DNA from: Mesorhizobium sp. | Lineage (GTDB): Bacteria; Pseudomonadota; Alphaproteobacteria; Rhizobiales; Rhizobiaceae | Length of the DNA stretch: 64,000 nt | Assembly: GCF_016793485.1 (NCBI RefSeq) | Contig: NZ_JAEULZ010000011.1 | Location: 1-64,000 of the forward strand | Direction: 5' to 3' | Shown here: one piece after another, positions 17,723 to 42,503 of the stretch | How the letters are laid out: every line of letters begins with the position of its first letter | How positions within the stretch are numbered: the first letter of the stretch is position 1 | Program-made: the position numbers and the translations under genes | Notes under the pieces: model-generated | The model's input: only the letters and a program-made list of their open reading frames with translations | What the model was told of the DNA's origin: nothing | The model's database searches: none

Positions 17723-18355
17723 TCAAGCCGGCTTGCCATCCCCTTCGTGCGGCGGATTGATGATCATCGCCATTCGCACCAGTTCGGAGAGGCTCGACGC
17801 CTTCATCTTGTCCATGACATTGGCCCGGTAGACTTCCACGGTCTTTGGGCTGATGCCGTGCAGATGCGCGATGATCTTGTTCGGATGGCCGGCGATGAGA
17901 CCGTTGAAGACATCGCGCTCACGCCCGGACAGCGTCTCGAACCGATCCCGGAAGCAACGGCGCTCGGCATCGAGCCGCCCGGCCTTCTTTGCCATGTCCA
18001 GTGCCCGACGGACCGACATGATGAAGAGTTCGTCGTCGAAAGGCTTTTCGAGAAAGTCCAGCGCGCCGATCTTCATCGCCTCCACGGCGAGCGGTATGTC
18101 GCCATCACCTGTCATCACGATGACGGGGACACGGACGTCCTCGTGCTTGAGCTGCTTCAACAGGTCGATGCCGGTCATTTCCGGCATGCGCACATCGGTG
18201 ACGATGCAGCCGCCCGAACCGCGCGGGAAACCGGTCAGGAAGTCGTTCGCGGATGCGTGAGCCTGCGCCTCGATGCCCACCGATGCGAGGAGGAAAACGA
18301 GGGCGCGCCGAACCTCATCATCGTCGTCTATTACATGGACCGTCGCCTCACTCAT
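17723..18355 (-). CDS. fixJ: FixJ-like two-component response regulator
   Basis: A 210-residue regulator. The receiver domain shows the acidic pair DDDD, phospho-acceptor D54 in VTDVRMPEM and the conserved Lys in EKPF; the C-terminal half is a LuxR-type helix-turn-helix ([22 protein letters not shown]). The fixL stop overlaps this gene's start, so the two are co-translated. In rhizobia FixJ-phosphate switches on fixK under low oxygen. ATG 18355 gives better spacing to GAAGG than ATG 18358. Confidence 0.92.
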
Positions 18356-19871
18356 CATCGGCCTTCTTCCTTTGCGTCGTCCGCAGTGTGAAACTGAACG
18401 TCGTTCCACCATTGCCACCAGAGTCGACCCAGATGCGTCCGCCATGCGCCTCGACCAGCGTCTTCGAGAGCGAAAGGCCAACACCCATGCCGGTCGGCTT
18501 GGTGGTGTGGAACGGCTTGAACAGGTTTTGCGCGATGTTGGGATCGAGGCCAGCGCCGCTATCCGACACGCTGATCCTGACAAGGCCCTCCGCGTGCGCT
18601 TGCGTCGATATCCGCAGCACCCGCTCCGATGAAGCCGTCATGGCTTCCAGCGCGTTGCGGATGAGGTTCAACAGGACTTGCTGAATCTGCACCTTGTCGA
18701 CGAGAACGTTCGTCTCGGCTCCGTCGAGGTCGAAAACGACGCGAACGCCCTTTTCCTTGGCGCCGACCAGTGCGAGCGCTCCAGCCTCCTCGATCAGCTT
18801 GCGGAGATCATGGATCTGCTTCTCGGTTTCGCCGCGCGCCACGAATTCGCGCAGGCGACGGATGACTTCTCCCGCCCGCATCGCCTGGCCTGCCGCATGC
18901 TGCAGGGCATCGCGGATCATCTCGTCCTGCTTGCCTTCGCGCCCCTCCATCATCCGGCGCGAGCCGTTCAGATAGCTGTTGATCGCCGTCAGCGGCTGGT
19001 TGAGTTCGTGCGCCAGCGCCGAGGCCATCTCGCCCATCGCGGAAAGCCGGGAGATGTGGACGAGCTCGGTCTGAAGCTCCTGCAGCCGTGCCTCGGTCTC
19101 CTGGCGCTCACTGAGATCGCGGATAAAGCCGGTAAAGAACCTCTCCCCGCCCGAATGCATCTCTCCGACCGACAGCTCCATCGGAAAGGTCGAGCCGTCC
19201 TTGCGTTGGCCGACAGCGATCCGACCGATACCAATAATGCGCTTTTCTCCGGTCGAGGCGTAACGGTCGAGATAGCCGTCGTGCCGGTCGCGATAGGGCG
19301 ATGGCATCAGCAGCTTGATGTTGCGGCCCATAATGTCGCCGGCGGTGCAGCCGAAGAGCTTCTCGGCCGCGGCGCTGAACGACTGGATTGCGCCGCGGGA
19401 ATCGATGACGATCATGGCATCCGGCACAGTGGCAAGAATGGATTTGAGGTGCGCCTCGCGCGCCGCCGCGCGCGCCCTTGCCTTGCCGGAATATTCACCG
19501 AACCAGGAGATGCCGATCCCAAGCAGCGCGAAGGTCAGCGCCCGCGTGAAGGCATTGCTCCAGCCAGCGGATGAGGGGTCGATTATGGCGCTTAGCTCAT
19601 CGTTGAGCAGAAGATGTCCGACAAGGCTCGTAGTAGTCGCAAACAGGCCTGGTCTTAGCCCACCGATCACTGCGGCGATCAGGACTGGCGGCACAAGCAG
19701 CAAATAAAGCGGTTGGCCGCCTATGGCAGGATCGAGCACCCAGCGAAGGCTGAACGTGATGAGAACAAGGGCGAGCGTTACAGCGTAAATCCCGGCCTGC
19801 GGCCACTGCCTCAGCAGCGCCGAGCGCAAGTCAGCCAGCGAAAATGCGGGATACGGGAACGAGGTTCTCAT
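18348..19871 (-). CDS. fixL: FixL-like oxygen-sensing histidine kinase
   Basis: A 507-residue membrane kinase. The N-terminus has about four membrane segments (residues about 28-125), as in Sinorhizobium FixL. The PAS domain (about 140-255) has the haem ligand H197 in DRHDGY and R217 in IGIGR, the residue that contacts bound oxygen in FixL. HisKA has phospho-acceptor H288 in [10 protein letters not shown], followed by the N, G1 and G2 boxes of the ATPase domain. Oxygen bound to haem inhibits the kinase; loss of oxygen leads to phosphorylation of FixJ. The start is M at 19871; the open frame upstream lacks family similarity. Confidence 0.95.
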
Positions 19872-20082
19872 TTCATACGAAGATCTGGCAACATATCGGG
19901 TGCACGGGTCTACGGTGTCAAAGTTTGCATGATACGGTATCCGGGCAGATATCCAACCGGTTCCGGCTGACGCTACATGGTCGGCATTGACCTCAGGGAC
20001 ATCCCTTAAGATCAATACCTGAATTTGGCTGGCGCCCACATGGACATATCCCTTGTCGGCAGAAGCAGGGGACCTCACCGCC
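19872..20082. promoter_or_regulatory. Divergent promoter region of fixLJ and fixK
   Basis: About 210 bp separate the divergent fixL and fixK genes. Promoters for both must lie here, and FixJ control of fixK is expected from rhizobial precedent. I could not find a FixJ or FixK consensus that I would defend. Confidence 0.4.
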
Positions 20083-20748
20083 ATGTACGCTCAAACGCAA
20101 GATGCTGTCGGTCGCACTGTGTCGCGTTCTGCATTCGCGGCCGCAGCTGCCGATCAGCCGAACCTGCTCTCCCGGGAAATCGACGCTCTGGGAACCGCGA
20201 TGACGTTCCCGCGAAACCGCGTTATCTTCTGCGAGCGGGACCCGGCGGTGTATCTCTACAAGGTCGTGTCGGGCGTGGTGCGGACGTGCCGATTCCTGGC
20301 CGACGGGCGTCGTCAGATTGATTCGTTTCACTTCAAGGCCGATATTTTCGGTCTTGCGGCCGGTTCCGAGCACCATCTCTTTGCCGAGGCGGCCACGCAT
20401 TGCGAGTTGATCGCCGTCAAGCGCCAGGCACTTGCGGTTGCGGCGGCGCAACGAGCCGAACTCGCCGTGGCCATGTTCGATGCCGCAACCGATGAATTGC
20501 GAAGAGTCAGTGACCACGTATCTTTGCTCGGCCGGACCAGTGCGGCGGAACGGATCATGAGTTATCTCCGGACATTGCCAACCGAGAGAGTTGGCGACAT
20601 GCGCGCCATTCCCATCTCGCGTCAGGACATGGCCGACTACCTCGGCCTGACGATCGAGACCGTGTCGCGCACGATGACGCAGCTCGAGGAGACCGGTTTG
20701 ATCGAGATTGTCGCGACGCGTCAGGTGCGGTTGCGCAGCATGATGTGA
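20083..20748 (+). CDS. fixK: FixK-type Crp/Fnr family transcriptional regulator
   Basis: A 221-residue regulator with an N-terminal cyclic-nucleotide-binding fold ([20 protein letters not shown] region) and C-terminal winged helix with the recognition helix [14 protein letters not shown]. The Glu/Ser/Arg in E-xx-SR predicts binding to TTGAT-N4-ATCAA. There is no FNR-type N-terminal cysteine cluster, so it does not sense oxygen through an iron-sulfur cluster and fits FixK, activated transcriptionally by FixJ. ATG 20083 has AGGGGA upstream. It lies next to fixLJ and in front of phosphoketolase. At least six matching boxes lie upstream of genes in this window. Confidence 0.9.
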
Positions 20749-20817
20749 CGAGAGCGACTGCGCCTCACAATGCCCGGCTTTGCTGTTCAGTCTCGACCGA
20801 TCAAAAGGACATTTGCC

Positions 20818-23196
20818 ATGAACGAAAGCCAGCTCGCACTCATCGACAGATATTGGCGCGCCGCAAACTATCTGTCGGTCGGCCAGATCTACCTGATGGA
20901 TAATCCGCTGCTGCGCGAGCCGCTGAGAGCCGAACACGTCAAGCCGAGGCTGCTCGGTCACTGGGGTACGACGCCGGGTCTCAACTTCATATACGCCCAC
21001 CTCAACAGGGTCATCAAGGAGCGCGACCTCGACATGCTCTACATCTGCGGACCCGGCCATGGCGGTCCGGCAATGGTCGCCAACACCTGGCTCGAGGGGA
21101 GCTACAGCGAGATCTATCCGGAAATCGGCCGTGATGCGGGCGGCCTGAAGAGGCTGTTCAAGCAGTTTTCTTTCCCCGGCGGCGTGCCGAGCCATGTCGC
21201 GCCCGAGACGCCCGGCTCGATCCACGAAGGCGGCGAACTCGGCTACGCCCTGGTGCATGGGTTCGGCGCTGCCTTCGACAATCCCGATCTGGTCGTCGCC
21301 TGCGTGGTCGGCGACGGCGAGGCCGAAACGGGGCCGCTCGCCGCGGCCTGGCATTCGAACAAGTTCCTCAATCCCAGGCATGACGGGGCGGTCCTGCCGA
21401 TCCTGCACCTCAACGGCTACAAGATCGCCAATCCCACCGTCCTGGCCCGGATGGATGAGGCGGAACTCAAAAACCTCTTCCAGGGATACGGCTATGACCC
21501 GTTTTTCGTTGAGGGCAGCGACCCGATGTTGATGCATGGCCTAATGGCGGCCACACTTGACGAGGTGATGGGCCGCATCCACGACATTCAGGTCGAGAGC
21601 CGCGCCGGGGGCTGGTCGGGCAAGCGGCCGCGCTGGCCGATGATCGTGCTGCGCAGTCCCAAGGGCTGGACCGGGCCGGTCGAAGTCGATGGGAAGAAGG
21701 TGGAGGACTTCTGGCGCTCGCATCAGGTGCCGGTCTCGAAAGCACGCGGCGATGACGGCCACCGCAAAATCCTCGAGGACTGGATGCGCAGCTACCACGC
21801 CGAGGAACTTTTCGACGAAGAAGGCCGGCTATTGCCGGAACTCGCCGCGCTGGCGCCCACCGGAGCCAAGCGGATGGGCGCGCTGCCGCATGCCAACGGC
21901 GGTTTGCTGAAAAAGGACCTCGACCTGCCCGACTGGAAAAGCCTTGCCCTCGACGTGCCGAAGCCGGGCGCAACGACCGGGGAGGCGACGCGCCTCATGG
22001 GCGCCTATCTGCGCGAGGTGATGGCGCTGAACGCCGAGGCGCGCAACTTCCGCCTGATGGGACCGGACGAAACGACGTCCAACCGGCTCGATGCCGTGTT
22101 CGACGTCACCGACCGCGTGTGGATGGAACGGATAGAGCCTTACGACGTCGGCCTCGCGCGCGATGGCCGAGTCATGGAGGTGCTGTCCGAGCATCTGTGC
22201 CAGGGCTGGCTCGAAGGCTATCTGCTGACCGGCCGGCATGGTCTCTTCTCTTGCTACGAGGCGTTCATCCACATTGTCGATTCGATGGTCAACCAGCACG
22301 CCAAATGGCTGAAGACCACGGCGGAATTGGAGTGGCGCAAGCCGGTCGCCTCGCTCAACTACCTTCTCACCTCGCATGTCTGGCGGCAGGACCATAACGG
22401 CTTCTCGCACCAGGACCCCGGTTTTGCCGATTTCGTCGCCAACAAGAAAGCCGACACGGTCCGGCTCTATTTCCCGCCAGACGCCAACACGCTGCTTTGG
22501 GTGACCGACCATTGCCTGAGGACATGGAACCGGATCAACGTCATCACCGCCGGCAAGCAGCCGGCGCCGCAGTGGCTGACGGCGGACGAAGCGGAGCGCC
22601 ACTGCACGGCGGGAGCGGGCATCTGGGACTGGGCATCGACATGTCCGGCAGACGTCGAGCCCGACCTCGTTATTGCGTCGGCGGGCGATGTGCCGACCAT
22701 GGAGGCGCTCGCCGCCACCGAGCTCTTGGCGACGGCTCTGCCGGACCTCAAGATCCGGTTTGTCAACGTCGTCGATCTGATGACACTGCAGTCAAGCAGC
22801 GAGCACCCGCACGGCTTCACCGACGCGGTGTTCGATGCCATGTTCACCGCCGACAAGCCGGTGATCTTCGCCTACCACGGCTACCCTTATCTCATTCACC
22901 GACTAACCTACCGGCGAACCAACCACCACAATTTCCATGTGCATGGCTTCCGCGAGGAAGGCACGACGACAACACCTTACGATATGGCGGTGCTGAACCA
23001 GCTCGACCGGTTTCATCTGGCGCTGGCGGCGTTGCGGCGCTTGCCGCAGTTCACTGACCGCTCGGCGCAGTTCGGTGCCGCGCTGGAAAGGAAGCTTGAA
23101 GAGCATAGGGCATATGTCCGCCAACATGGCGAAGACATGCCTGAAATCCGCGACTGGCATTGGTCTGGATTACTCGCTTCGGAAGCAGGGGCTTGA
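20818..23196 (+). CDS. xfp: Phosphoketolase (xylulose-5-P/fructose-6-P)
   Basis: A 792-residue thiamine-diphosphate enzyme, close to the usual length of about 790. Motifs include [28 protein letters not shown] and the ThDP-Mg site [18 protein letters not shown]. It splits xylulose-5-P (or fructose-6-P) with phosphate to acetyl-phosphate plus glyceraldehyde-3-P (or erythrose-4-P). The start ATG 20818 follows AAAAGGA. It lies 69 bp after fixK, probably in one transcript, and an acetate kinase-phosphotransacylase fusion that would use its product is encoded nearby at 24570-26366. Confidence 0.95.
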
Positions 23197-23204
23197 TCCC
23201 AAGG

Positions 23205-23912
23205 ATGATGTTTCAAGAGGCGCCGCGACGCACCAGCCGATTCGTTCGGCGGATCGGCTGGCTACGGGCGGCCGTTCTGGGGGCCAATGATGGGATACTA
23301 TCGACGGCCAGCCTCATCGTGGGCGTTGCGACATCCTCCGCTTCGGCCGGCAGTATTCTCGTTGCTGGCGCCGCTGGCCTCGTCGCCGGATCGATGTCGA
23401 TGGCGGCAGGCGAATATGTTTCCGTCAGTTCCCAGTCGGACGTAGAAAAGGCCGAGCTCGAACGTGAGGCGCTGGAACTCCGGGACGATCCCGTTGCCGA
23501 GCACCAGGAACTGGCGCAGATTTACGTCGGCCGCGGCCTCAGCGTGGAACTTGCCAGCCAGGTGGCGACACAATTGATGTCGTCCAATGCACTTGCCGCG
23601 CATGCGCGCGACGAGCTCGGGCTGTCGGATGTCACGGCTGCGCGCCCGATCCAGGCCGCCCTTGCATCGGCCCTCAGCTTCGCCATCGGCGCGGCGCTAC
23701 CACTCCTCATGGTCGTTATCGCTCCGGCCGACGCTCTTGTCCCTGCGGTGTTCATATCATCACTGGCGTTCCTGGCCCTCCTTGGCGCACTCGGCGCCTG
23801 CACGGGCGGCGCGAACCCGACGAAAGGAGCCGCAAGGGTGGCGTTCTGGGGCGCCGGTGCGATGGCGTCGACGGCCGGAATAGGAGCGATATTCGGCAGC
23901 TCGACCTATTAG
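23205..23912 (+). CDS. VIT1/CCC1 family Fe2+/Mn2+ transporter
   Basis: A 235-residue protein with the VIT family opening (RAAVLGANDGILSTASLIVGV), the MAAGEYVSVSSQ motif in the second helix, a cytoplasmic helical insert with many acidic residues (about 75-145), and three further membrane helices. Family members move Fe2+ or Mn2+ out of the cytoplasm. It begins 8 bp after the phosphoketolase stop; an earlier TTG start overlapping that gene is possible because no strong ribosome-binding site is seen for ATG 23205. Probably part of the fixK-xfp transcript. Confidence 0.85.
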   Translation: MMFQEAPRRTSRFVRRIGWLRAAVLGANDGILSTASLIVGVATSSASAGSILVAGAAGLVAGSMSMAAGEYVSVSSQSDVEKAELEREALELRDDPVAEHQELAQIYVGRGLSVELASQVATQLMSSNALAAHARDELGLSDVTAARPIQAALASALSFAIGAALPLLMVVIAPADALVPAVFISSLAFLALLGALGACTGGANPTKGAARVAFWGAGAMASTAGIGAIFGSSTY

Positions 23913-24155
23913 CTACTCTGGCTGAAGGAAATTCGACCGAAAGAACAAACTGTGTTGAACCCGGAGTTTGCGACAAAGCAAATTTCTCGGTTGGAACTCT
24001 CACCCGTGGCTTTCGCCGCCTGGATGCCGTCGAGATTTCCACCCGTTCTCAAGTAAAAATGAGACGGCGTCTACCGGGTTGGCGTCTATAGTGAGGTCAG
24101 CAGTCATGGGGCAAGTTTGGCCGTTCTGCGGTCGCGCGGAAGGCAGCATAGAAGT

Positions 24156-24183
24156 GCGGCTTCCCGATAATCTGGGAAGCCGC
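24156..24183 (-). terminator. Strong hairpin downstream of the His-rich protein gene
   Basis: GCGGCTTCCC-GATAATCT-GGGAAGCCGC is a perfect ten-pair stem nine bases after the minus-strand stop. No long T-run follows. It could serve either strand, also ending transcripts from the VIT1 gene. Confidence 0.6.
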
Positions 24184-24192
24184 AGATAAACT

Positions 24193-24384
24193 CTACTTCT
24201 TGGTAGAACCACTCTTGTCGCGATGGCCATGCGTGTCGAGATCGCCGGGCTTGTGCCCGGGATGATCATGATGTTCGCCGGCCACTTCCTTCTTGCCCTC
24301 TTTGTCGCGGTGACCGTGGGGGTCAAGGTCACCCGGCTTATGACCGGGATGGTCATGGTGCTTACCCGGCTTTTCCTGTGGCAT
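24193..24384 (-). CDS. Small His-rich protein made of two tandem repeats
   Basis: A 63-residue, very hydrophilic protein with no cysteine and no membrane segment. It consists of two near-identical copies of the unit HHDHPGHKPGDLDxHGHRDK joined by EGKKEVAGE. About a fifth of residues are His, mostly spaced for metal binding, and charged residues make up most of the rest. GGAGG stands five bases before ATG 24384, so the start is good, and a strong hairpin follows the stop. I do not recognise the family. Metal buffering (Zn, Ni, Cu or Fe) or stress protection is possible but unproven; neighbours are a metal transporter and acetate kinase. Confidence 0.75.
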   Translation of the reverse strand: MPQEKPGKHHDHPGHKPGDLDPHGHRDKEGKKEVAGEHHDHPGHKPGDLDTHGHRDKSGSTKK

Positions 24385-24569
24385 TGTTTCCTCCTTCAGC
24401 GTGACGCCAGCTTGCGTGCGTGACTGGAGGAAATGCTTGGACATGGCCTGTTGTTCCCGACAGGTCCCAATTTGCGGTAGAAGCGTGGTCCATCCGCACG
24501 TTCCCTCAGAAGTCGGGAGCAGAACGTCTGGCGCGGTCAGCCACCGCCGCAGCGTATGCTATGGTCCGG

Positions 24570-26366
24570 TTATCGATGCCCAGGGCGGATGGTGGCGGTC
24601 GCGCCGACGACGATTTCACCGTCCGTCGTGGCCCCGATGCCGGCGGCGTTGGCCTCGTCGGTATCGATGTGCATCTCTGTGAAGGAATCGGCGCCGATGC
24701 GGACAAGTGTGCGCGCAAAGGTAAGCCCGCGGCTGTCGTCGCCCACGTGCACGTCGACATGCTCGCCGTCCTCGAGGCCCAGCCGGGCGGCATCGGCCGG
24801 ATTGGTGTGGATGTGACGGGCCGCCAGGATCAGCCCTTCCGTCTTCACCGTGCCGGCCGGACCGACGAGCGTGACGGAAGGGGTGCCGTCGAGTTTGCCG
24901 CTGTCGCGCACCGGCACGTCGATGCCGAGCGCAAAGCTGTCGGTGCGCGAGATCTCTACCTGCGTGCGCGGCCGCAGTGGTCCAAGGATGGCGACATGGT
25001 CGAGGCGGCCCTTTGGTCCCTCGACGGCGACGCGTTCCCGCGCCGCCCAATGGCCGGGCTGGCGCAGCGGGGTCTGCGGCGTTAGTACGTAACCTGGGCC
25101 GAACAGCGTATCGGCGGCGGCACCGGACAGATGAACATGCCGCCCCGACACAGCCACGGGGACACGGCCGGTCGAAGGCTTCGGCCCAGCGACCGCCATC
25201 GCGGTTTCGCGCGCGATCATCAACTGCTCGGCCGTCTCGGTGACGAGCACCCGCACGCGCGAACCATAGGCCTGGATCTGCGGTGCCGCCTGTCCGGAAA
25301 GGTCGGCAGCCTGATTGCGCTCGTGGTCGAGACGAACGCCCATGAACTCGAGGCCATCCAGGATGCGCCGGCGCATGGCGGGCGAGTTCTCGCCGATGCC
25401 GCCGGTGAAGACGATGGCGTCGAGGCCGCCCATTGCCGCCGCATAGGCCCCGATATATTTCCGCGCCCGGTAGGCATAGACCTCGATGGCGAGCTGCGCG
25501 TCGGCATCGCCCCTAGCAGCCGCATCTTCCAGATCGCGCATATCTGCGGAACCGGCGAGCCCCTTCAGACCGCTCCGGCTGTACAGAGCGTCCTCGATCT
25601 CTGCGATGGAGAGGCCGAGTTGGCGGCTGAGGTGGCCGAATGCGCCCGGATCGACATCGCCGGAGCGGGTTCCCATCACAAGCCCTTCGAGCGGCGTCAT
25701 GCCCATGGAACTGTCCATGCTGACCCCGCGATTGACCGCGCAGATGCTGGCGCCATTGCCCAGATGCACGCTGGCGATCCGAAGGTCGGCGAGGCCCATG
25801 CCGATCTCCTCGGCGGCGCGCGCCGCGACATATTTGTGCGACGTGCCGTGAAAGCCGTAGCGCCGCAATCCGGCTTCCCGCCAGGCCTTCGGCACGGCGT
25901 AGGTGGTGGCGAAGGGCGGGTTCGACAGATGGAACGAGGTGTCGAACACGGCGACCTGCGGGATTTCGGGCCACAGGCGCCGGCTGAGTGCGATCGCCTC
26001 CAGATTGGCGGGATTGTGCAGCGGCGCGAGCGGCGTCAGCGTCTCGATGCGCGCTATCGTAGCCTCGTCGAGGATTACTGGCGCCGCGAACAGAGAACCC
26101 CCATGCGCCACGCGATGTCCCACCGCCTCGAGCGAACCCAATCCGAAGCGGTCGAGAGTCGCTGGAACCTCGGCGATCGACGCTGCGACGCCATCGCATT
26201 CCGCGGTCCGGCGTTCCTCCGTGCCCGCGTGGCGGATGCGCACCTCGCACCCACCGTCGCGAAAGCGCTCGTAGGATCCTTTTAAGACCTCACGGGCCTC
26301 GCCATCGATGCGGAAGACGCCGAATTTCAGGCTCGAGCTTCCGACGTTGAACACCAATACAAGCAT
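24570..26366 (-). CDS. Bifunctional acetate kinase - PduL-type phosphotransacylase fusion
   Basis: A 598-residue protein with two complete domains. Residues 1-390 are acetate kinase: N7 VGSSS, R84, D143, H173 in HGTSH, GNGAS, R234 in TRSGD, GENS at 325-328. Residues about 400-598 are a PduL phosphotransacylase with its zinc-site motifs RHVHLS (H409, H411), RHIHTN (H518, H520) and MHIDTDEANA (H566). It would turn acetyl-phosphate from phosphoketolase into acetate plus ATP or into acetyl-CoA. Normal AckA is about 400 residues and PduL about 210, so this is a clean fusion in one frame. ATG 26366 follows AAGGA. A FixK box lies about 107 bp upstream. Confidence 0.92.
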   Translation of the reverse strand: MLVLVFNVGSSSLKFGVFRIDGEAREVLKGSYERFRDGGCEVRIRHAGTEERRTAECDGVAASIAEVPATLDRFGLGSLEAVGHRVAHGGSLFAAPVILDEATIARIETLTPLAPLHNPANLEAIALSRRLWPEIPQVAVFDTSFHLSNPPFATTYAVPKAWREAGLRRYGFHGTSHKYVAARAAEEIGMGLADLRIASVHLGNGASICAVNRGVSMDSSMGMTPLEGLVMGTRSGDVDPGAFGHLSRQLGLSIAEIEDALYSRSGLKGLAGSADMRDLEDAAARGDADAQLAIEVYAYRARKYIGAYAAAMGGLDAIVFTGGIGENSPAMRRRILDGLEFMGVRLDHERNQAADLSGQAAPQIQAYGSRVRVLVTETAEQLMIARETAMAVAGPKPSTGRVPVAVSGRHVHLSGAAADTLFGPGYVLTPQTPLRQPGHWAARERVAVEGPKGRLDHVAILGPLRPRTQVEISRTDSFALGIDVPVRDSGKLDGTPSVTLVGPAGTVKTEGLILAARHIHTNPADAARLGLEDGEHVDVHVGDDSRGLTFARTLVRIGADSFTEMHIDTDEANAAGIGATTDGEIVVGATATIRPGHR

Positions 26367-26472: not shown

Positions 26473-26486
26473 TTGATTTTGGTCAA
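26473..26486. promoter_or_regulatory. FixK/FNR-type box between ackA-pduL and the 26569 gene
   Basis: TTGAT-TTTG-GTCAA matches the FixK box with one deviation. It lies between divergent genes, about 113 bp from the ackA-pduL start and about 90 bp from the 26569 start, so it could drive either or both. Confidence 0.6.
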
Positions 26487-26982: not shown

Positions 26983-27432
26983 ATGTACAAGCATATCCTC
27001 ATCCCCACCGACGGATCGGAAGTCGCACAGAAGGGCGTCGATCATGGATTGTCACTGGCCAAGGCTCTGGGCGCGCGCGTCACCATCTTGACGGTGACCG
27101 ACCGCTATCCGCTGCCGGTCGGAGGCCTTGGTGCGGAGTGGGCGCCCACGACGGACGAACTGGCAAGTTTCCAGGAAAGCCAGAAGCAGAGCGCGGAGCG
27201 AATTCTGGACGCCGTGAAGCGTGCCGCCGACAAACTCGGTGTCACCGCTGCCACCCTCCATATTCCTGAGGCCCACCCCGCCGAGGCCATCGTCGATGCG
27301 GCGCGGACCGAGGGCTGCAGCCTCATCGTGATGGCCTCGCACGGCCGGCGCGGGCTCGGGCGTCTGCTTCTCGGAAGCCAGACTGCCGACGTTCTGGCGC
27401 ACAGCCCGGTGCCCGTGCTGGTCGTCCGCTGA
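26983..27432 (+). CDS. Universal stress protein (single UspA domain)
   Basis: A 149-residue UspA-fold protein: N-terminal strand YKHILIPTDGS and C-terminal nucleotide-binding motif SHGRRGLGRLLLGSQTADVLAHSPVPVLVV, matching the ATP-binding G-2x-G-9x-G-S/T class. GGAGC precedes the ATG. It is the first of three Usp proteins in 3 kb, a usual feature of low-oxygen regulons. Role in survival under energy limitation is inferred. Confidence 0.93.
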   Translation: MYKHILIPTDGSEVAQKGVDHGLSLAKALGARVTILTVTDRYPLPVGGLGAEWAPTTDELASFQESQKQSAERILDAVKRAADKLGVTAATLHIPEAHPAEAIVDAARTEGCSLIVMASHGRRGLGRLLLGSQTADVLAHSPVPVLVVR

Positions 27433-27460
27433 CAGCGGACCGTTTGAAGAACCGAGAAGG

Positions 27461-28303
27461 ATGCCGATCTTGAAGCTCCAAGCCTTACTTCCCCTCGTCA
27501 CGTATCCCGATGCCAACAGCGAAATCATCGCGCCGAATGCTGCCGCGGTCGCGCGCTACCTCGGCGCCGACCTCCATGCGCTGGCGCTCGAGGCCGACAT
27601 TCCGGCGGTTTCCAACGCGTTGTCGAATGTGGTGATGAACCTTCCGGAAATGATCCGCGACGCCGAGAAACTCAGCGCGCGGCGCAGCGCCGACCTTCGC
27701 GCCGCGGTCACGGCGGCATGCGCGACGGCGGATGTCGCCCTGACGACGGAGACGATCCGCGGCCATCTGCCCGTCCTTTCCGACCTCGCCGCGGAACACG
27801 CACGCTATCACGACATCTCGCTGGTCGGCTGGAGCGGGGGTAATCCCGGAACACAGATGCTGGCCGAAGCGGTCGTGTTCGGATCGGGGCGTCCGACGCT
27901 TCTTTTTTCCGAAGCGCGGCCCGAAGTTAGGCTCGATCACGTCGCTGTAGCCTGGGATGCCAGCAGGGTTGCGGCGCGCGCGCTGGCCGACGCCCGGCCG
28001 CTCCTCAAGCGAGCTTCGGCTGTCACGGTCATCATGATCACGGACGAGAAGCCGCTCAGCACCGTCGCCGGGGAGAAACTCGCCGGGCATCTGCGTGAGC
28101 TGGGGCTGCCGGCTCAGTTGCAGACATTCAGGCTTGGCGGGCGCCCGGTCGCTGAGGCGCTGCAGGACAACGCCGCCGCCATCGGCGCGAATGTCCTGGT
28201 GATGGGCGGGTTCGGCCATTCAAGGCTTCGCGACTTCGTGCTCGGCGGCGCCACCGAAGGGGTACTGGCCGACCTCAAGATGCCGGTGCTGCTGTCGCAC
28301 TGA
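27461..28303 (+). CDS. Universal stress protein, tandem-domain type
   Basis: A 280-residue protein with two UspA-like halves. The C-terminal half keeps a recognisable motif (MGGFGHSRLRDFVLGGATEGVL...PVLLSH); the N-terminal half is degenerate. This organisation is common in rhizobia. It starts 28 bp after the previous Usp gene, with GAGAAGGATG around the start, and is likely in the same transcript. Confidence 0.88.
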   Translation: MPILKLQALLPLVTYPDANSEIIAPNAAAVARYLGADLHALALEADIPAVSNALSNVVMNLPEMIRDAEKLSARRSADLRAAVTAACATADVALTTETIRGHLPVLSDLAAEHARYHDISLVGWSGGNPGTQMLAEAVVFGSGRPTLLFSEARPEVRLDHVAVAWDASRVAARALADARPLLKRASAVTVIMITDEKPLSTVAGEKLAGHLRELGLPAQLQTFRLGGRPVAEALQDNAAAIGANVLVMGGFGHSRLRDFVLGGATEGVLADLKMPVLLSH

Positions 28304-28424
28304 ACCGGGCAGGATATGGAGCGCGCGCCCCGGTCCGTGCGTTGCAGGACGCGTCGGATGCCGGCCAAGTCGGGTGAAGTCTGGCGTGAACCGAACCGAC
28401 TTTTTCGACGCGAAGGAGCACGAC

Positions 28425-28877
28425 ATGCAGGTCCGCACACTCGACCGGTCGGAATGCATCCGACTGCTCTCAGTCAATCGTCTCGGCCGGCTGGCCTGTT
28501 CGCTGGACGGTCAGCCCTATGTCGTTCCCATCCACTTCGCTTACGCCGACAATTCTCTCTACGCCTTTTCCCTGCTCGGCAGAAAAATCGACTATATGCG
28601 GTCCAATCCCAAGGTATCGATGCTGGTCGAGGAGCACGGTCCCCGCCGCGCATGGAAAAGCGTCGTTGTCGACGGCCGGTTCGAGGAACTGCCTGACCGG
28701 GTCGGGCACAAGCACGATCGGGATCATGCCTGGTCATTGCTGAGCCGCCATGCGGCATGGTGGGAACCGGGCGCTCTCAAGCCTGTCATCCCGCCCATGA
28801 GCGATCATGCGACCCATGTGTTCTTCCGCATCGTCATCGATCGATTATCGGGCCGCGAGGCAAATGAAGACGATTGA
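28425..28877 (+). CDS. Pyridoxamine 5'-phosphate oxidase family FMN-binding protein
   Basis: A 150-residue split-barrel flavoprotein. MQVRTLDRSECIRLLSVNRLGRLACSLDGQPYVVP begins near residue 1 and shows the family's first helix and FMN-binding strand, with typical RLGRLA and VVPIHFAY motifs. Members bind FMN or F420 and reduce small molecules or sense redox state. ATG 28425 has GAAGGAG six bases upstream. It sits between Usp genes, suggesting a role in low-oxygen or redox stress. Substrate unknown. Confidence 0.82.
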   Translation: MQVRTLDRSECIRLLSVNRLGRLACSLDGQPYVVPIHFAYADNSLYAFSLLGRKIDYMRSNPKVSMLVEEHGPRRAWKSVVVDGRFEELPDRVGHKHDRDHAWSLLSRHAAWWEPGALKPVIPPMSDHATHVFFRIVIDRLSGREANEDD

Positions 28878-28903
28878 TGAGGGGACAGACCTCCAAGGCC
28901 TCT

Positions 28904-28917
28904 TTGATTTTTCTCAA
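28904..28917. promoter_or_regulatory. FixK/FNR-type box upstream of the third usp gene
   Basis: TTGAT-TTTT-CTCAA, one mismatch from TTGAT-N4-ATCAA, centred about 63 bp before the 28974 start. The distance and the extended symmetry (TTTGA..TCAAA) fit a FixK-activated promoter. Confidence 0.6.
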
Positions 28918-28973
28918 AGTCGGACGGCTCGAGCAATGCCAACATAAGCCAATTGCAATCGGGGAAACGCGAG

Positions 28974-29798
28974 ATGCCGTTCAAGACAGTGCTCACCATT
29001 GTTTCACCGCATCGGGGTGACGACGACTTGAAGATGGTCGCCACACTCTGTGGCGAGACCGAGGCACATCTTTCAGTCGTCATCCTGACGCCGGCGCCGC
29101 CGCCGCCGATCGGTCACCACGCAATCGGCTGGTTCGAGCAACTTGAACGCGACGAGCACGCGCTCAAGCGGCGCACAGCGGCCGTGTCGAGATTGCTGGC
29201 GTCGTCCGCAGTCTCCTCGGACCTTTGGACGGTCTATCCGGAAGTGCCCTATCTGGACGATGTCGTCGGCCGCCGCGCCCGCTATGCCGACATCACGGTG
29301 CTCGGCCCTGAATTGCTTTCCGACGAGACGCTGAAAGCAAAGGCTCTTGAGGGCGCGCTGTTTTCATCCGGAAAGCCGGTTTTGCTGATTCCCGCGGGCG
29401 CCAAAGCCTCGCTCAAGCCGAAGCGGGTCAACGTCGCCTGGGATTCCCGCGTCGAAGCGTCGAATGCTGTCGCGTCATCCCTGGATATGCTGAGAACGGC
29501 CGAGGAGGTGCGTCTTGTGCTTGTCGATCCCGTACAGGGCGAGGGCGCTCAGGGCGCCGAGCCCGGTGCGGACGCTGCCACCTATCTGGCCCGGCATGGC
29601 GTCAAGGTCGTGGTCGATCGTCTGCCGTCGCAGGGGCAGCCGATTGCCGAAGTCCTCGGCCGGCACGCAATCGATACGGCGGCCGAAGTTCTCGTGATGG
29701 GCGCCTATGGCCATTCGCGCCTGCGCGAGCGCCTGTTCGGCGGCGTAACGCGCTCGATGATCGAGACGCCGCCGCTTCCCGTCCTGATGGCCCGGTAG
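28974..29798 (+). CDS. Universal stress protein, tandem-domain type
   Basis: A 274-residue Usp protein. The C-terminal domain ends MGAYGHSRLRERLFGGVTRSMIETPPLPVLMAR, the usual nucleotide-binding ending of tandem Usps; the N-terminal half (KTVLTIVSPHRGDDDLKMVA) has a degenerate UspA fold. GGGGAAA precedes ATG 28974. It is close to a FixK box and directly followed by the broken kinase gene. Confidence 0.88.
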   Translation: MPFKTVLTIVSPHRGDDDLKMVATLCGETEAHLSVVILTPAPPPPIGHHAIGWFEQLERDEHALKRRTAAVSRLLASSAVSSDLWTVYPEVPYLDDVVGRRARYADITVLGPELLSDETLKAKALEGALFSSGKPVLLIPAGAKASLKPKRVNVAWDSRVEASNAVASSLDMLRTAEEVRLVLVDPVQGEGAQGAEPGADAATYLARHGVKVVVDRLPSQGQPIAEVLGRHAIDTAAEVLVMGAYGHSRLRERLFGGVTRSMIETPPLPVLMAR

Positions 29799-29875: not shown

Positions 29876-31101
29876 TTGAATGCGGAGGGCCAGTCGGATT
29901 TCATCGCCTTCCTGACGGCGCCCGTTTCATATGGTCTTGCCGGTCCGGTGGAGGTGATCGAGACCCATATTTCGCGGATCTTTCTTGTGGGTGATCGCGC
30001 CTTCAAGACGAAGCGTGCGGTTGGTCTGCCCTATGTCGACTTCTCGACGGCCGATCTTCGGCTGGCCGCCTGCCGCCGCGAAGTCGAGCTCAACAACGCC
30101 ACGGCTCCCGGGATCTATCTCCGCGTGCGCCGCATCACACGCCAAGCGGACGGCGGTCTTGCCTTCGACGGGGACGGTCCCCTGGTCGATGCGGCCATCG
30201 AGATGAGGCGCTTCGACCAGACCGCGCTTTTCGACCGCATGGCCGGGCCCGGTCGGCTGACGCCGGCCCTCATGACCAAAACGGCGCGCATGATTGCCGA
30301 CTTCCACCACCATGCGCCGATCGCGCATACCGACGGCGGCGCCGAGATGAGGACGGCTTTGTCCTGTTGCCCGTCTTCATGGCAATCCGCGCTGCGGTGC
30401 GTGCGCACGTCACCGCCACTCAGGCACACGAAAGCGGCGATCCCTCGGGCGTTTTGAACCGGGAGGCGAAAGCCTATTTCCTGCTCGCAGGCAAACTGCT
30501 GGAGCCCCATCCGGGACGCCTTGTGGTGATCGGTGGACTGAGCGGCTCCGGCAAGACTACGGTCGCGGAACAACTCGCCCCGGTGATAGATCCTCCGCCT
30601 GGGGCGCGCATCGTGGAGAGCGATCGCATCCGCAAGGCGATGCACGGTGTTCCGGCGGAAACCCGTCTTCCCGAAAAGGCCTATAGACCGGAGGTGTCCG
30701 ACCGGGTCTATCGCGACATGGTTGCGCGCGCAGCTCGCATCCTCGACCAGGGCGGCTCGGTGGTCGCCGATGCGGTTTTTGATCGTCCATCGGATCGGGA
30801 TCGGATTGCGCGAATGGCGCGCGATCGGAACTTTCCGTTTCTCGGTGTCTGGCTGGAAACCGCGCCTACGGTCCTGCGCGAGCGGGTCGAAGGGCGCGAA
30901 CAAAGTCCTTCCGACGCGACCAGCGATGTCCTTTCGCGTCAGCTTCAACGGGATGTCGGGACGCTGGACTGGCGCAGGGTAGATGCGGGACGCGATGTCG
31001 GCGCGATCGTGCGCGAGATCCTCTCGCTCCCCGCAGATGACGCGGCCGGTCCTCCGGACCGGCCGCGATCCATTGTCTGCACGCGCCTCAATCTGCTTTG
31101 A
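29876..31101 (+). pseudogene. Broken phosphotransferase/AAA kinase gene with internal deletion
   Basis: The family is the two-domain protein with an aminoglycoside-phosphotransferase-like N-terminal part and a P-loop kinase C-terminal part, usually just over 500 residues. Here the N-terminal piece (to about 30343: IADFHHHAPIAHTDGG) runs straight into the C-terminal piece (DEDGFVLLPVFMAIRAAVRAHVTATQ, starting near 30346) in a different frame. About 100-150 codons that would carry the HGDLHLRN catalytic loop are missing. The C-terminal P-loop GLSGSGKTT and the rest are intact, so a shortened kinase from about 30379 could still be made. The start TTG 29876 follows AGGAGGAAG; GTG 29798 is possible. 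Confidence 0.75.
31041..31067. terminator. Perfect 12-bp hairpin at the end of convergent genes
   Basis: CGCGGCCGGTCC-TCC-GGACCGGCCGCG is a perfect stem with a three-base loop inside the last codons of the broken kinase gene and 21 bp past the stop of the convergent dehydrogenase gene. It could act as a two-way terminator. No T-run is present. Confidence 0.4.
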
Positions 31102-32689
31102 AGCTCTTGCGGATGAGAACGAGCGTGGGATCGTCCGGGTAAGGGCTCGCTGTGAAGCCCTGCTGCCGCTCAAGTTCGATCGCCTCGTGGTTCTGGCGGC
31201 TCTCGAGAGATTCAAGAACCTTCACCCCCATGGCCTGCGCATGGGCCGAGACGTGACGCAGCAGTTCCCATCCGACGCCCTTGTGCTTGTAGTCGGAGCG
31301 CACCGAAATCGCGACCTCGGCTCTTCCAAGCCCTTCCTCGCAGACGAGCATCGCCGTGCCGATGATCGGCGTTCCCTCAGGCGCGAAGGACAGAAAGTTC
31401 TCGGTCCGGCCGTGATCGACCCTCAGCATGTCGACCAGTCGGTCATGGCTCACTTCCCGGATGCCGCCGAGAAAGCGGAACCGAAGATCATCTGGCGCGA
31501 CATGCCTGAAGAATTCCGCCAGCGCGGCTTCGTCGTCGGGACGTGCGGCGCGGACATGGAAGACGAGGCCGGAGCGGGTTTCGACGGCGGTCGTCTCACC
31601 ATGGTCGGTCATATTCGGTTCCTGATTTGCAAGACCCGCGCCGGCCGGTGAGGCGCACTCGATGATGACCTTCAAAGCGCCTGTGCTGGATGCGCTGCCG
31701 AACGTCTCATAGGCCTCGAGGATCTGGTCGAGGGCGAACCGGTGGGTGACGAGCTTTCCGGCTTCGAGCTTTCCGGACTGGACCGTTTTCAGAAGCATCG
31801 GTGTCGTGACGGTGTCGACGAGCCTGGTCGTGATGGCGATGTTGTGCGACCAGAGCTTTTCCAGGTGAAGGTCCGCCTTCGCGCCGTGGACGCCAACATT
31901 GGCGATGATGCCGCCAGCCGCCACGATCTCCTGACAAAGCTCGAACGTTGCCGGGATACCGACCGCCTCGATAGCGGTGTCGACGCCGCGGCCGCCGGTC
32001 AGCGCCATCACCTCGCGGGCAGCGTCTTCGCCTGACGCCTTGATCGTATGTGTGGCTCCGAAGCGCTTCGCCATCTCGAGCCGGTTCTCGTCGAGATCGA
32101 CCATGACGATTTGGGCGGGCGAATAGAATTGCGCCGTGAGCAGCGCTGCCAACCCGACGGGACCGGCGCCGACGATCGCCACCGTGCCGCCGGGCTGCAC
32201 CTTGCCGTTGAGCACGCCGCATTCGAAACCCGTGGGTAGGATGTCGCTGAGCATCACCAGCGCGTCCTCGTCGGCGCCATCGGCGATCGCGTAGAGGCTG
32301 GTGTCGGCATGCGGGATGCGGACATATTCGGCCTGGGTGCCGTCGATCGTGTTGCCGAGGATCCATCCGCCGGTCGCGCAGTGGGAATACATACCGCGGC
32401 GGCAATGTTCGCATTTCCCGCATGCGGAGATGCACGAAATCAGGACGCGATCGCCTTTCCGGAATTGCGTGACGCCGGCTCCGACTTCGGTAATGACACC
32501 GAGGCCTTCGTGCCCAAGGATGCGACCCGGCAAGCAACTGGGCACATCGCCTTTCAGGATATGCAGATCCGTGCCGCAGATCGTGGTCTTGACGATATTG
32601 ACGACAGCATCGGTTGCGGATTCGATGACCGGCAGCGGTCGCTCCTGAAGCGATTTCGCGCCGGGACCTTCGTAAACCAAAGCTTTCAT
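31088..32689 (-). CDS. Zinc alcohol dehydrogenase fused to a GNAT acetyltransferase domain
   Basis: A 533-residue protein. Residues 1-348 form a medium-chain alcohol dehydrogenase: catalytic zinc ligands C38 and H60/E61, structural zinc cysteines C90, C93, C96 and C104, and the NAD fold GAGPVG at 174-179. After a linker of about 20 residues, residues 372-533 form a GNAT domain with acetyl-CoA loop RSDYKHKGVGW. The frame is continuous, with an internal Met (NMTDHGE) where a separate GNAT gene would start. The ADH half would reduce or oxidise small alcohols/aldehydes such as acetaldehyde/ethanol; the GNAT half may acetylate proteins. FixK boxes lie upstream. Confidence 0.85.
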   Translation of the reverse strand: MKALVYEGPGAKSLQERPLPVIESATDAVVNIVKTTICGTDLHILKGDVPSCLPGRILGHEGLGVITEVGAGVTQFRKGDRVLISCISACGKCEHCRRGMYSHCATGGWILGNTIDGTQAEYVRIPHADTSLYAIADGADEDALVMLSDILPTGFECGVLNGKVQPGGTVAIVGAGPVGLAALLTAQFYSPAQIVMVDLDENRLEMAKRFGATHTIKASGEDAAREVMALTGGRGVDTAIEAVGIPATFELCQEIVAAGGIIANVGVHGAKADLHLEKLWSHNIAITTRLVDTVTTPMLLKTVQSGKLEAGKLVTHRFALDQILEAYETFGSASSTGALKVIIECASPAGAGLANQEPNMTDHGETTAVETRSGLVFHVRAARPDDEAALAEFFRHVAPDDLRFRFLGGIREVSHDRLVDMLRVDHGRTENFLSFAPEGTPIIGTAMLVCEEGLGRAEVAISVRSDYKHKGVGWELLRHVSAHAQAMGVKVLESLESRQNHEAIELERQQGFTASPYPDDPTLVLIRKSFKAD

Positions 32690-38168: not shown

Positions 38169-38436
38169 AGACCGCATGGGAACGGTTGCCGACTTCCTGC
38201 GCACCCGCATGTCGCTTCGCAGGCGGTCGCCCTCGAAGGCGCAGGCCTTCACAACGCTCCACGACCATGTGCGCCGTCATCGACTGACATCAAGCCGCGG
38301 GCGAAATGCCGATCACAGGAAAAGTCGATGATGGACTGCATCGGCTCGTGCGTCTTTGATTTTCATCAAAGACGGCGCGGTCGGATCCGCCCATTGTCGA
38401 GCCGTATCGGTGTTGAAGCTCAAACTGGGGGTGCGC
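38169..38436. other. Intergenic leader with FixK box before the cbb3 cluster
   Basis: 268 bp between the exporter and the DUF2934 gene. A short open frame crosses the first part but has no family support. The main feature is the perfect FixK box at 38356-38369. Confidence 0.45.
38356..38369. promoter_or_regulatory. Perfect FixK/FNR box upstream of the cbb3 cluster
   Basis: TTGAT-TTTC-ATCAA is an exact match to the FixK/FnrN consensus, with extended symmetry (CTTTGA..TCAAAG). It is centred about 74 bp before the DUF2934 start and about 450 bp before ccoN. FixK control of ccoNOQP is well established in rhizobia. Confidence 0.8.
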
Positions 38437-38625: not shown

Positions 38626-38809
38626 TTGTCGCTTCGGTAATGCAGGCCGGCAGCCGCTGCTCCGGTCCAGATGATCATGTGAAAGCCTGGCGCTGTCTTA
38701 TCGTGCGTTGGCCATCAGGGTCCGTCTGCCGGGCTGCCCAACCACCTGCGCGAAACCCGTTGCGTGACCTCCTATCCGGCGATGCGACGCGATGCCGAGC
38801 GAGGGCGCA

Positions 38810-40459
38810 ATGGTAGCGGGACTGACTGTGTCGGAGCGCCAACTGGCTCTCCTGGTGCTGGGCCTTCTGGCATCTGGCGGCCTTGCGATGGCTGCTGCTG
38901 GTCGCGGCGACCCGTTGGGTGCGCACGGCTTCATCGTGCTGATCATCAGCGTCGCGCTGGCTTTCCTGGTTCTCTCGCGCTACCATGATCCCGAACCCTC
39001 CCAGGAACGGCTGTCCGAATACTACGACGACCCGACGCGCGTCGGCATCGTGCTGGCGATGATCTGGGCCGTCATCGGCATGTTCTTCGGCGTCTGGGTT
39101 TCGGCGCTACTTGCCTGGCCTGAACTGACGTTCGTCGATCAGGCTTGGGCCAGCTTCGGTCGCATCCGTCCAGTCCATACCAGCGGCGTGATCTTCGGCT
39201 TCGGCGGCAACGCGCTCATCGCCACGTCATTCCACGTGCTGCAACGTACGACGCGGGCGCGCCTGCCCGATCAGTTCAGCCCGTGGTTCGTGCTGATCGG
39301 CTACAACCTGTTCTGCATCGTAGCCGCATCCGGCTATCTGATGGGCGTGACGCAGTCGAAGGAATATGCCGAGCCGGAATGGTACGCCGATTTCTGGCTG
39401 GTCATCGTCTGGGTCGTCTATTTCGCGATCTACATCCGCACGCTGATGCGGCGCAAGGAGCCGCACATCTACGTGGCCAATTGGTACTACATGGCCTTCA
39501 TCCTGGTCGTGGCGGTGCTGCACATTGTCAACAACCTTGCTCTCCCGATCTCGGCCGGCAGCGCCAAGAGCTATACGATCTGGCCCGGCGTGCAGGACGC
39601 CATGGTGCAGTGGTGGTACGGCCACAACGCCGTGGCCTTCTTCCTGACGGCCGGCTTCCTCGGCATGATGTACTATTATCTGCCCAAGCGCGCCGAGCGA
39701 CCGATCTTCTCCTACCGGCTGTCGATCATCAGCTTCTGGGGCATCACCTTCATGTATATGTGGGCGGGCTCCCACCATCTTCACTACACGGCGCTGCCGC
39801 AGTGGGTGCAGACACTTGGGATGACCTTCTCGGTGATGCTGCTGGTGCCATCCTGGGCTTCGGCCGGCAATGCGCTGGCAACACTCAACGGCGCCTGGCA
39901 CAAGGTCCGCGACGACGCAACGCTGCGCTTCATGATGGTCGCGGCCGTCTTTTACGGCCTCTCGACTTTCGAGGGATCCTTCATGGCGATCCGCGCCGTC
40001 AACTCGCTGTCGCACTACACCGACTGGACCGTGGCGCATGTGCACGCGGGCGCGCTCGGCTGGGTGGCGATGATCACCTTCGGTTCGTTCTACGCGCTGG
40101 TGCCCTGGATGTGGAAACAGGAGCGCATGTATTCGCCGAAGCTGGTCGAAGTGCACTTCTGGCTCGCTCTGTCGGGCACCATCATTTACGTCTTCGCCAT
40201 GTGGAACGCAGGCATCATCCAGGGCCTGATGTGGCGCACCTACAACGACAGCGGCACGCTCGCCTATTCCTTCATCGAGAGCATGGTCGCGATGCATCCC
40301 TACTACATCGCACGGACCGTCGGCGGGCTGTTCTTCCTGGCTGGCGCCGTGGTCGGCTTCTACAACATCATCATGACGATCCGCATGGCGCGCCGCGGCG
40401 CGGCGGCGCCCGACAGCGCCTCCGACGTGCCGGCTGTCGCCGTCCAGCCGGGGGAGTGA
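38810..40459 (+). CDS. ccoN: cbb3-type cytochrome c oxidase subunit I
   Basis: A 549-residue protein with about 14 membrane helices. His residues that bind haem b and the haem b3-CuB centre are visible in [40 protein letters not shown] and [11 protein letters not shown]. The regulatory ETFGSM-like features of aa3 oxidases are absent, as expected for cbb3. It reduces oxygen with high affinity and pumps protons. ATG 38810 follows GAGGG. First of the ccoNOQP set; a perfect FixK box lies upstream. Confidence 0.96.
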
Positions 40460-40463
40460 AGCA

Positions 40464-41222
40464 ATGCCCCGGTTTCACCGAAAACTCGAGCGCAGCGCCA
40501 TTGGCTTCGTGCTTGCCATCATCGGCGTCTCCGCGATCGGCGGGTTCGTCGAGATCGCTCCCTTGTTCACCATCGACGAGACGGTGGAAAAGGTGCCGGA
40601 CATGCGCGTCTACACGCCGCTCGAACTCGCCGGCCGCAACATCTATGTTCGCGAAGGCTGCTACGCCTGTCACAGCCAGATGATCCGCACGTTGCGCGAC
40701 GAGGTCGAGCGCTACGGTCCCTACTCGCTGGCCGTCGAGTCACAATATGACAGGCCGATGCTGTGGGGGTCGAAGCGGACGGGACCGGATCTGGCGCGTG
40801 TCGGTGGAAAATATTCCGACGCATGGCATGTCGCTCATCTCAACAATCCGCGCGACGTGGTGCCGGAATCGATCATGCCTCGCTACGGCTGGCTGCTGGG
40901 CAACACGCTAAGAACCGATGATCTTGGCGCGAGCCTTTCCGCACAGCAGATGCTCGGCGTGCCCTATACGGACGCCATGATCGCAAACGCCGCCGCCGAT
41001 GCATACGGACAGGCGGCGCCGGATAGTGGCCAGTCCTCCGGCGTCGGCGAGCGCTACGGCGAGGCGACCAATGTCCGCGCTTTCGACGGCGATCCCGGCC
41101 GGCTCACCGAAATGGACGCGCTCGTCGCCTACCTGCAGGTCCTTGGCAAACTCACCGACGCCGCGCAGAAACAGGCGACGGAGGCGAACCCGGAGACCGC
41201 CCCGCAAGTCGAGGAGGACTGA
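40464..41222 (+). CDS. ccoO: cbb3-type cytochrome c oxidase subunit II (monohaem)
   Basis: A 252-residue membrane-anchored cytochrome c: one N-terminal helix, haem motif C66-Y-A-C69-H70 and distal Met in [13 protein letters not shown]. It passes electrons from CcoP to CcoN. It starts 4 bp after ccoN. The C-terminal part includes a hydrophilic Ser/Gln-rich insert ([12 protein letters not shown]), common in rhizobial homologues. Confidence 0.95.
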
Positions 41223-41226
41223 GGGC

Positions 41227-41415
41227 ATGGGCTTCGATCACGACCAACTCGTCGCCTTCGCCCAGAAATGGGGACTGCTCTATTTCCTGGCGCTTTCAGC
41301 GGGCGTCGCGATCTACGCATTGTGGCCTTCAAACAGGAAGCGGTTCGATCGCGCCAAGCACAGCGTCCTCGATAAAGACGACCGACCCGATGGGGCACGC
41401 CATGGCAAGCGGTAG
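41227..41415 (+). CDS. ccoQ: cbb3-type cytochrome c oxidase subunit CcoQ
   Basis: A 62-residue protein with one membrane helix (LLYFLALSAGVAIYALWPS) followed by a basic tail, NRKRFDRAKHSVLDKDD, the usual CcoQ ending. It stabilises the assembled cbb3 complex. It starts 4 bp after ccoO and its end overlaps the beginning of ccoP. Confidence 0.9.
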   Translation: MGFDHDQLVAFAQKWGLLYFLALSAGVAIYALWPSNRKRFDRAKHSVLDKDDRPDGARHGKR

Positions 41416-42280: not shown

Positions 42281-42489
42281 ACCCGCCCGCCGGGAGCCCG
42301 GCGCGGCAAAAGGTCAACTGGCGCTGCGTCTCCCTGTTGATCGCCGGGGCGGTCGTGGCGCTTTTCGTGGCCGCCAACGCTCATCTCTTCTACGTCGCGT
42401 TCACCTCGCAGCCCGATTGCGTGCCGCATGCCAGGGAGTCGGAGGGCGGGTCGTCGTCGACGCTGCGGGCCGCCCGCTCCGCCTGTTGA
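42277..42489 (+). CDS. Small single-helix membrane protein of the cbb3 operon
   Basis: A 70-residue protein with one membrane helix (VSLLIAGAVVALFVAANAH) and a following HLFYVAFTSQPDCVPH motif with a Cys and two His. The ATG overlaps the ccoP stop (ATGA), so it is translated with the oxidase. I do not recognise a named family. It occupies the place where ccoG and ccoH normally stand. A role in assembly or copper handling at the membrane face is possible. Confidence 0.7.
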   Translation: MNPPAGSPARQKVNWRCVSLLIAGAVVALFVAANAHLFYVAFTSQPDCVPHARESEGGSSSTLRAARSAC

Positions 42490-42503
42490 CCGGAGGAACA
42501 GCC

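Follow-up and report, generated by a model that had tools for sequence, protein, structure and literature searches.

The PduL signature is found in multidomain proteins that are mostly annotated as acetate kinases (Ack), and PduL has been proposed to substitute in these fusions for phosphotransacetylase (Pta), with channelling suggested as well (Erbilgin et al. 2016; PMC4784909). The passages considered from a further paper, PMC4207490, do not mention the Ack-PduL fusion. Phosphoketolases (Xfp) have been connected to low oxygen and to FixK. A putative phosphoketolase of Rhodopseudomonas palustris TIE-1 is among the predicted FixK targets, with a ratio in the fixK mutant of 0.11 in one listed condition and of 0.6-2.1 in the others (PMC3050613), and the phosphoketolase of Bradyrhizobium diazoefficiens is listed among the proteins changed at low oxygen (PMC6515984). 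Both themes meet in a 64,000-nucleotide stretch of Mesorhizobium sp. (contig NZ_JAEULZ010000011.1, positions 1 to 64,000; here called the window), which encodes an AckA-PduL fusion protein close to a phosphoketolase gene, xfp. As this fusion type has been in print since 2016, the window protein is a further member of it. The initial annotation of the window had called such a fusion unusual; this did not hold up, as the architecture is published (PMC4784909) and the fusion is carried by several phyla.

The fusion gene (24570-26366, minus strand) is an open reading frame (ORF) of 598 codons that starts with ATG at 26366 and has no internal stops. It encodes an acetate kinase half (residues 2-386; 25209-26363, minus strand), a linker and a PduL phosphotransacylase half (residues 403-577; 24636-25160, minus strand). 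The kinase half has the conserved domain PF00871 (Acetate_kinase; 421 bits against a cut-off of 22, model positions 1-392 of 392), matches TIGR00016 (406 bits, cut-off 293) and resembles solved acetate kinases, the best being 2iir_A (E-value: 1.4e-103). The PduL half has the conserved domain PF06130 (PTAC; 220 bits against a cut-off of 25, model positions 1-175 of 176), matches NF011652 (226 bits, cut-off 209) and resembles the solved PduL 5cuo_A of R. palustris (E-value: 1.7e-53), with which its first 107 residues align ungapped. The alignments of the two halves to these solved structures run over the whole length of the domains. A fold predicted from 21 aligned proteins of the window and of related loci (predicted local distance difference test score, pLDDT, 81.6; predicted template modelling score 0.68) has a template modelling (TM) score of 0.85 by target length against 2iir_A and of 0.93 against 5cuo_A (root-mean-square deviation 2.2); residues 222-239 have a pLDDT below 50. 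Both domains lie within a single uninterrupted frame, as in the Ack-PduL architecture of Erbilgin et al. (2016). The Pfam matches and the ORF confirm that the fusion is a complete AckA and a complete PduL in one protein near a phosphoketolase, as the initial annotation had it.

Residue conservation was counted over 86 distinct fused proteins of 583-622 residues each, window included. The catalytic set of acetate kinase, which we take to be Asn7, Arg91, His123, Asp148, His180, Asn211, Arg241 and Glu384 of the Methanosarcina enzyme, is matched completely in the fusion by alignment and is invariant (86/86). Ten of the 12 AckA positions checked are invariant in the fusions (N7, S10, K14, R85, H117, D142, H173, N204, R234 and E380); S12 is serine in 85/86 and N327 is asparagine in 82/86. 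In PduL, the zinc ligands are His48, His50, Glu109, His157, His159 and His204, to which Arg103 is added, and coenzyme A (CoA) is contacted by Ser45, Lys70, Arg97, Leu99 and Asn211 (PMC4784909). The six ligands and Arg103 map to H410, H412, E471, H518, H520, H566 and R465 of the window protein, again invariant in 86/86, as are the equivalents of Ser45, Gln74, Leu99, Arg103, Gln107, Ser127 and Asn211; the CoA-contact equivalents kept in the window protein are S407, L461 and N573. The catalytic motifs of both halves are thus intact, as claimed earlier for the window protein. The linker region (window residues 389-402) measures 14-19 residues in 85 fusions and 33 in one.

A scan of the genomes of 84,980 species returned at least 553 relatives, of which the best 80 loci were kept. 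Each of these covers at least 501 query residues at 45-74% identity, and they belong to Alpha- and Gammaproteobacteria, Burkholderiaceae, Bacteroidota, Myxococcota, Planctomycetota and Acidobacteriota. Two of the 80 (L065 and L066) start at a contig end and one (L080) is split over two frames in its PduL part. A complete fused frame is present in 90 loci, which together with the window give the 86 distinct proteins. An assembly or lost-stop artefact, which had been named as what could undo the original claim, is rejected, because the same fused frame recurs in many independent assemblies. Among 299 genomes of the phylum, PF06130 occurs in three (the window's own, fused in G436 and stand-alone in G312), and among 289 genomes of the class in two, the window's own and one with a match under the cut-off. 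In the family sample (151 genomes, own included), PduL occurs in 10, and exactly these genomes also match the fused query at full length.

Trees of the two halves were built with 39 of the 86 distinct fusions (L014, L022, L066 and L080 were dropped). In the PduL tree, which includes six stand-alone PduLs (four on long branches), all fused halves fall on one side of a branch (support 88/87). In the AckA tree, which includes 11 stand-alone AckAs (nine from the window's family), the fused proteins group together with two kinase-only proteins among them (L012 and L113; support 94/90). This tree needs three changes, which fits one gain and two losses. The main groups of the two trees agree, and weakly supported forks differ. 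The simplest reading, and a probable one within the limits set by the few stand-alone rows, is that a single old fusion took place. The two kinase-only proteins inside the fused clade, from genome G106 (L012) and from plasmid p1-T1 of Acidovorax sp. T1 (L113), have probably lost their PduL half. In four other loci the PduL part is split between two frames: L022, L114 and L120 on Sinorhizobium and Ensifer plasmids, and L080 in Micavibrio. L022 also has an xfp fragment just downstream, so that decay of both genes seems to be under way there.

The window genome (5.21 Mb, 52 contigs) has one AckA-type match (8 of 14 candidates scored) and one PduL. No Pta over the cut-off was found in it; of two matches under the cut-off, the better (199 bits) lies in a 780-residue frame, which has the size of a malic enzyme with a Pta-like tail. 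Of the family genomes, 20/151 have an over-cut-off Pta, against 0/10 of those with the fusion, a difference that is weak by itself. Such a Pta is also found in just six of 44 named fusion genomes, which were selected non-randomly from the 80 loci (two of these, L025 and L026, are apparently G129 and G067 of the family sample). Two others of the 44 (G472 and G478) have Pta matches of 295-300 bits against a cut-off of 311, in frames that are Pta-sized or longer. Three more (G449, G452 and G453) score 208-227 bits against the Pta model in frames of 307-325 residues and may possess another phosphate acyltransferase. Bacterial microcompartment (BMC) shell proteins (PF00936) have no match in the window genome; the controls, E. 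coli and Synechococcus, were matched.

Phosphoketolase produces acetyl-phosphate. In the window it is encoded by xfp (20818-23196, plus strand), which matches XFP_N, XFP and XFP_C and the NCBIfam phosphoketolase model (1566 bits, cut-off 1295); its ORF spans 20770-23196 (plus strand), and the ATG at 20818 is a likelier start than position 20770. Between xfp and the fusion lie a VIT-family gene (23160-23912, plus strand) and a small ORF with no Pfam match (24193-24444, minus strand). Full-length XFP is present in 44 of the 151 family genomes, namely in 7/10 with the fusion and in 37/141 without it (Fisher p = 0.007, uncorrected for relatedness). In all seven, xfp adjoins the fusion, in tandem orientation in G030 and G129 and in convergent orientation in the window, G067, G015, G028 and G098. 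An eighth case is provided by G089 (L027), where the end of an xfp gene lies at the contig edge beside the fusion, for a total of 8/10. Among the 37 XFP genomes without the fusion, 31 are without an over-cut-off Pta, and in 19 no more than 5 kb separates XFP from a stand-alone AckA. The pairing of phosphoketolase with AckA is therefore the commoner arrangement, to which the fusion adds a transacylase.

In 83 loci, xfp sequence lies within 8 kb of the fusion in eight, two of which hold fragments (L022, and L027, which is cut by the contig end). L073 gave one more match, at 30% identity, which was not counted because it is probably a different thiamine enzyme. The fusion is also adjoined by xfp in Rhizobium herbae (L028), Devosia (L060) and the gammaproteobacterium Pseudohongiella (L068). 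No third conserved partner gene was found, and the top neighbour cluster besides the fusion itself, P-type ATPases, accounts for 16 of 84 sequences. The pairing of the fusion with phosphoketolase is lineage-specific. A phosphoketolase-free setting is seen on plasmid pPNAP02 of Polaromonas naphthalenivorans (L024, 8001-9782), where fabI comes immediately before the fusion and a DUF3141 gene after it, with ppk2 and metal-transport genes in the surroundings.

Upstream of the fusion, 107-120 bases before its ATG, is an exact FixK-type box (TTGA-N6-TCAA; 26473-26486), which is a candidate regulatory site. Another exact box (20407-20420) lies about 400 bases before the xfp ATG at 20818, within a fixK-like gene, and its role is doubtful. 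That gene (20053-20748, plus strand) encodes a Crp/Fnr regulator (Crp, cNMP_binding; NCBIfam FixK 195 bits, cut-off 300). Nearby are genes for a FixL-like PAS histidine kinase (18348-20084, minus strand; PAS, HisKA, HATPase; NCBIfam FixL 560 bits, cut-off 850) and a FixJ-like response regulator (17723-18583, minus strand; Response_reg, GerE). The window holds eight exact boxes against 0.62 expected, a number reached in 0/100 shuffles; if one mismatch is tolerated, only a weak excess is left (22 boxes against 13.4 expected, 5/100 shuffles as high). Of the 10 family fusion genomes, four have an exact box close to the fusion or to its xfp. A box precedes the fusion by about 110 bases in G028, the tandem xfp-fusion pair by about 250 bases in G030 and G129, and xfp by about 640 bases in G015. 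The idea that control by FixK is conserved together with the fusion was rejected: exact boxes within 400 bases upstream occur in 5/101 rows against 0.5 expected from mononucleotide shuffles, and these five rows are L001 and L002 (each of them the window), L018 (a stand-alone AckA), L006 and L057. Further along the window, genes for a cbb3 oxidase (COX1, FixO, FixP) and a FixI-like heavy-metal P-type ATPase lie at 38792-45514 (plus strand), with an exact box at 38356-38369. Another exact box (28904-28917) falls within a region (26983-29798, plus strand) in which a pyridoxamine-phosphate-oxidase-like gene lies among the genes for three universal-stress-family proteins. A 533-amino acid ORF (31088-32689, minus strand) with a zinc alcohol dehydrogenase domain followed by a GNAT acetyltransferase domain is apparently another fusion.

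The proposed role of the fusion, as read from sequence, is as follows. The AckA half would interconvert acetyl-phosphate and ADP with acetate and ATP, and the PduL half would interconvert acetyl-phosphate and CoA with acetyl-CoA and phosphate at its two-zinc site. The fusion in general would do the work of AckA and Pta; beside the phosphoketolase of the window's lineage, it would take the place that a stand-alone AckA has in many relatives. Acetyl-phosphate made by Xfp, the presumed substrate, would then flow either to acetate with gain of ATP or directly to acetyl-CoA. Apart from the fusion, no AckA and no phosphotransacetylase were found in the window genome. Low oxygen probably induces expression by way of FixL-FixJ-FixK. 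Taken as a whole, it is likely that the protein is a bifunctional acetate kinase-phosphotransacylase that arose in one old fusion, is paired here with Xfp and is probably induced at low oxygen. This reading does not include channelling. A more ambitious version does: as a branch-point enzyme, the fusion would hand acetyl-phosphate from phosphoketolase over from one of its two sites to the other, and would thereby govern how much ATP and how much acetyl-CoA is made of it when oxygen is low. This version is speculative and rather unlikely to be correct.

Several observations weigh against this interpretation. Full-length XFP is absent from 36 of the 44 named fusion genomes (present in eight) and from two of the 10 family fusion genomes (G062 and G024). 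The xfp and fusion genes of the window point towards each other (the gene order is xfp and the VIT-family gene on the plus strand, then the small ORF and the fusion on the minus strand) and so do not form one operon. As to regulation, the exact box nearest to xfp is intragenic, the FixL and FixK matches are both under their NCBIfam cut-offs, and no exact box was found in the stretch read in 5/10 family fusion genomes (G067, G098, G062, G024 and G089). The window genome also has one acetyl-CoA synthetase above the cut-off, so that PduL is not its sole route from acetate to acetyl-CoA. The low-oxygen reading in the initial annotation survives for the window, with its FixL-, FixJ- and FixK-like genes, cbb3 oxidase and eight boxes, but boxes upstream of the fusion are not conserved in relatives. 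Similarly, the proposed link to phosphoketolase holds in the window's family and not for most named fusion genomes. Because of the 36 genomes that lack full-length XFP, the general role of the fusion is probably replacement of Ack-Pta. The same figure, together with the scarcity of over-cut-off Pta (6/44) and the lack of a partner gene common to most loci, would suit a general reversible acetate/acetyl-CoA module whose main use is to activate acetate, or to turn acetyl-CoA into acetate for excretion, and for which the adjacency of xfp is incidental. This is a possible but minor alternative, as XFP adjoins the fusion in every family fusion genome with the full gene (7/7) and xfp does so again in Rhizobium herbae, Devosia and Pseudohongiella.

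The PduL half itself also raises doubts. In the window protein, the CoA-contact residue Lys70 is replaced by T432 (lysine is kept in 49/86 fusions), Arg97 by A459 (alanine in 46 and arginine in 40 of 86) and the pocket residue Gln77 by H439 (glutamine in 37, histidine in 25 and asparagine in 16 of 86). As these positions vary, sequence does not settle the acyl substrate. Both halves could be active on a different acyl group such as propionyl, given the altered pocket, the use of propionyl-CoA by studied PduLs (PMC4784909) and the presence of propionate kinases among AckA relatives; this appears improbable, since the neighbouring phosphoketolase yields acetyl-phosphate and, among solved proteins, the kinase half is closest to acetate kinases. 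The altered CoA contacts, and the copies in which the PduL part is split (L022, L114, L080, L120) or missing (L012, L113), could also mean that the kinase half alone is functional and that the PduL half is drifting or structural. Such a role is very unlikely, because the six zinc ligands and the equivalents of Arg103, Gln107 and Ser127 are invariant in 86/86 intact fusions from several phyla. A bifunctional enzyme acting on acetyl-phosphate thus remains the preferred reading.

In the fusion, nature has combined acetate kinase with a transacylase, PduL, that is not related to Pta. The combination is widely conserved and occurs here in a genome that lacks BMC shell genes; in the window's lineage, one protein would close the phosphoketolase route. 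The channelling suggested in 2016 becomes testable on a single soluble protein; no report of a channelling assay on such a fusion was found in the open-licence literature searched. If true, channelling at the branch point would let rhizobia of this lineage reach acetyl-CoA by a route that saves carbon. To the published description, the present comparison adds a wide distribution (the search for AckA-PduL fusions that the initial annotation had proposed led to the set of 86 proteins) and the finding that carriers seldom have a separate Pta. It also adds that the fusion probably arose once and that its pairing with phosphoketolase and FixK-type boxes is lineage-specific.

Compared with known systems, the window protein is like the Ack-PduL proteins of Erbilgin et al. 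(2016) in that the two-domain PduL signature is joined to Ack and the encapsulation peptide is absent. The passage on those proteins, unlike the present case, names no organism and no link to phosphoketolase or FixK, and gives no assay of a fusion. The PduL half has the same fold and zinc ligands as the BMC PduL of R. palustris (5CUO/5CUP), but it is fused to AckA in a genome where no BMC shell gene was found, and its equivalents of Lys70, Arg97 and Gln77 are changed. The fusion occupies the same place beside xfp as the stand-alone AckA of other Rhizobiaceae, which has no PduL half. In B. diazoefficiens, bll2518-bll2517 likewise pairs a phosphoketolase with an acetate/propionate kinase, and at low oxygen the levels of both genes fall about tenfold when fixK2 is mutated; a box lies at -89 (PMC9104804). 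That pair is a predicted operon, whereas xfp and the fusion of the window converge.

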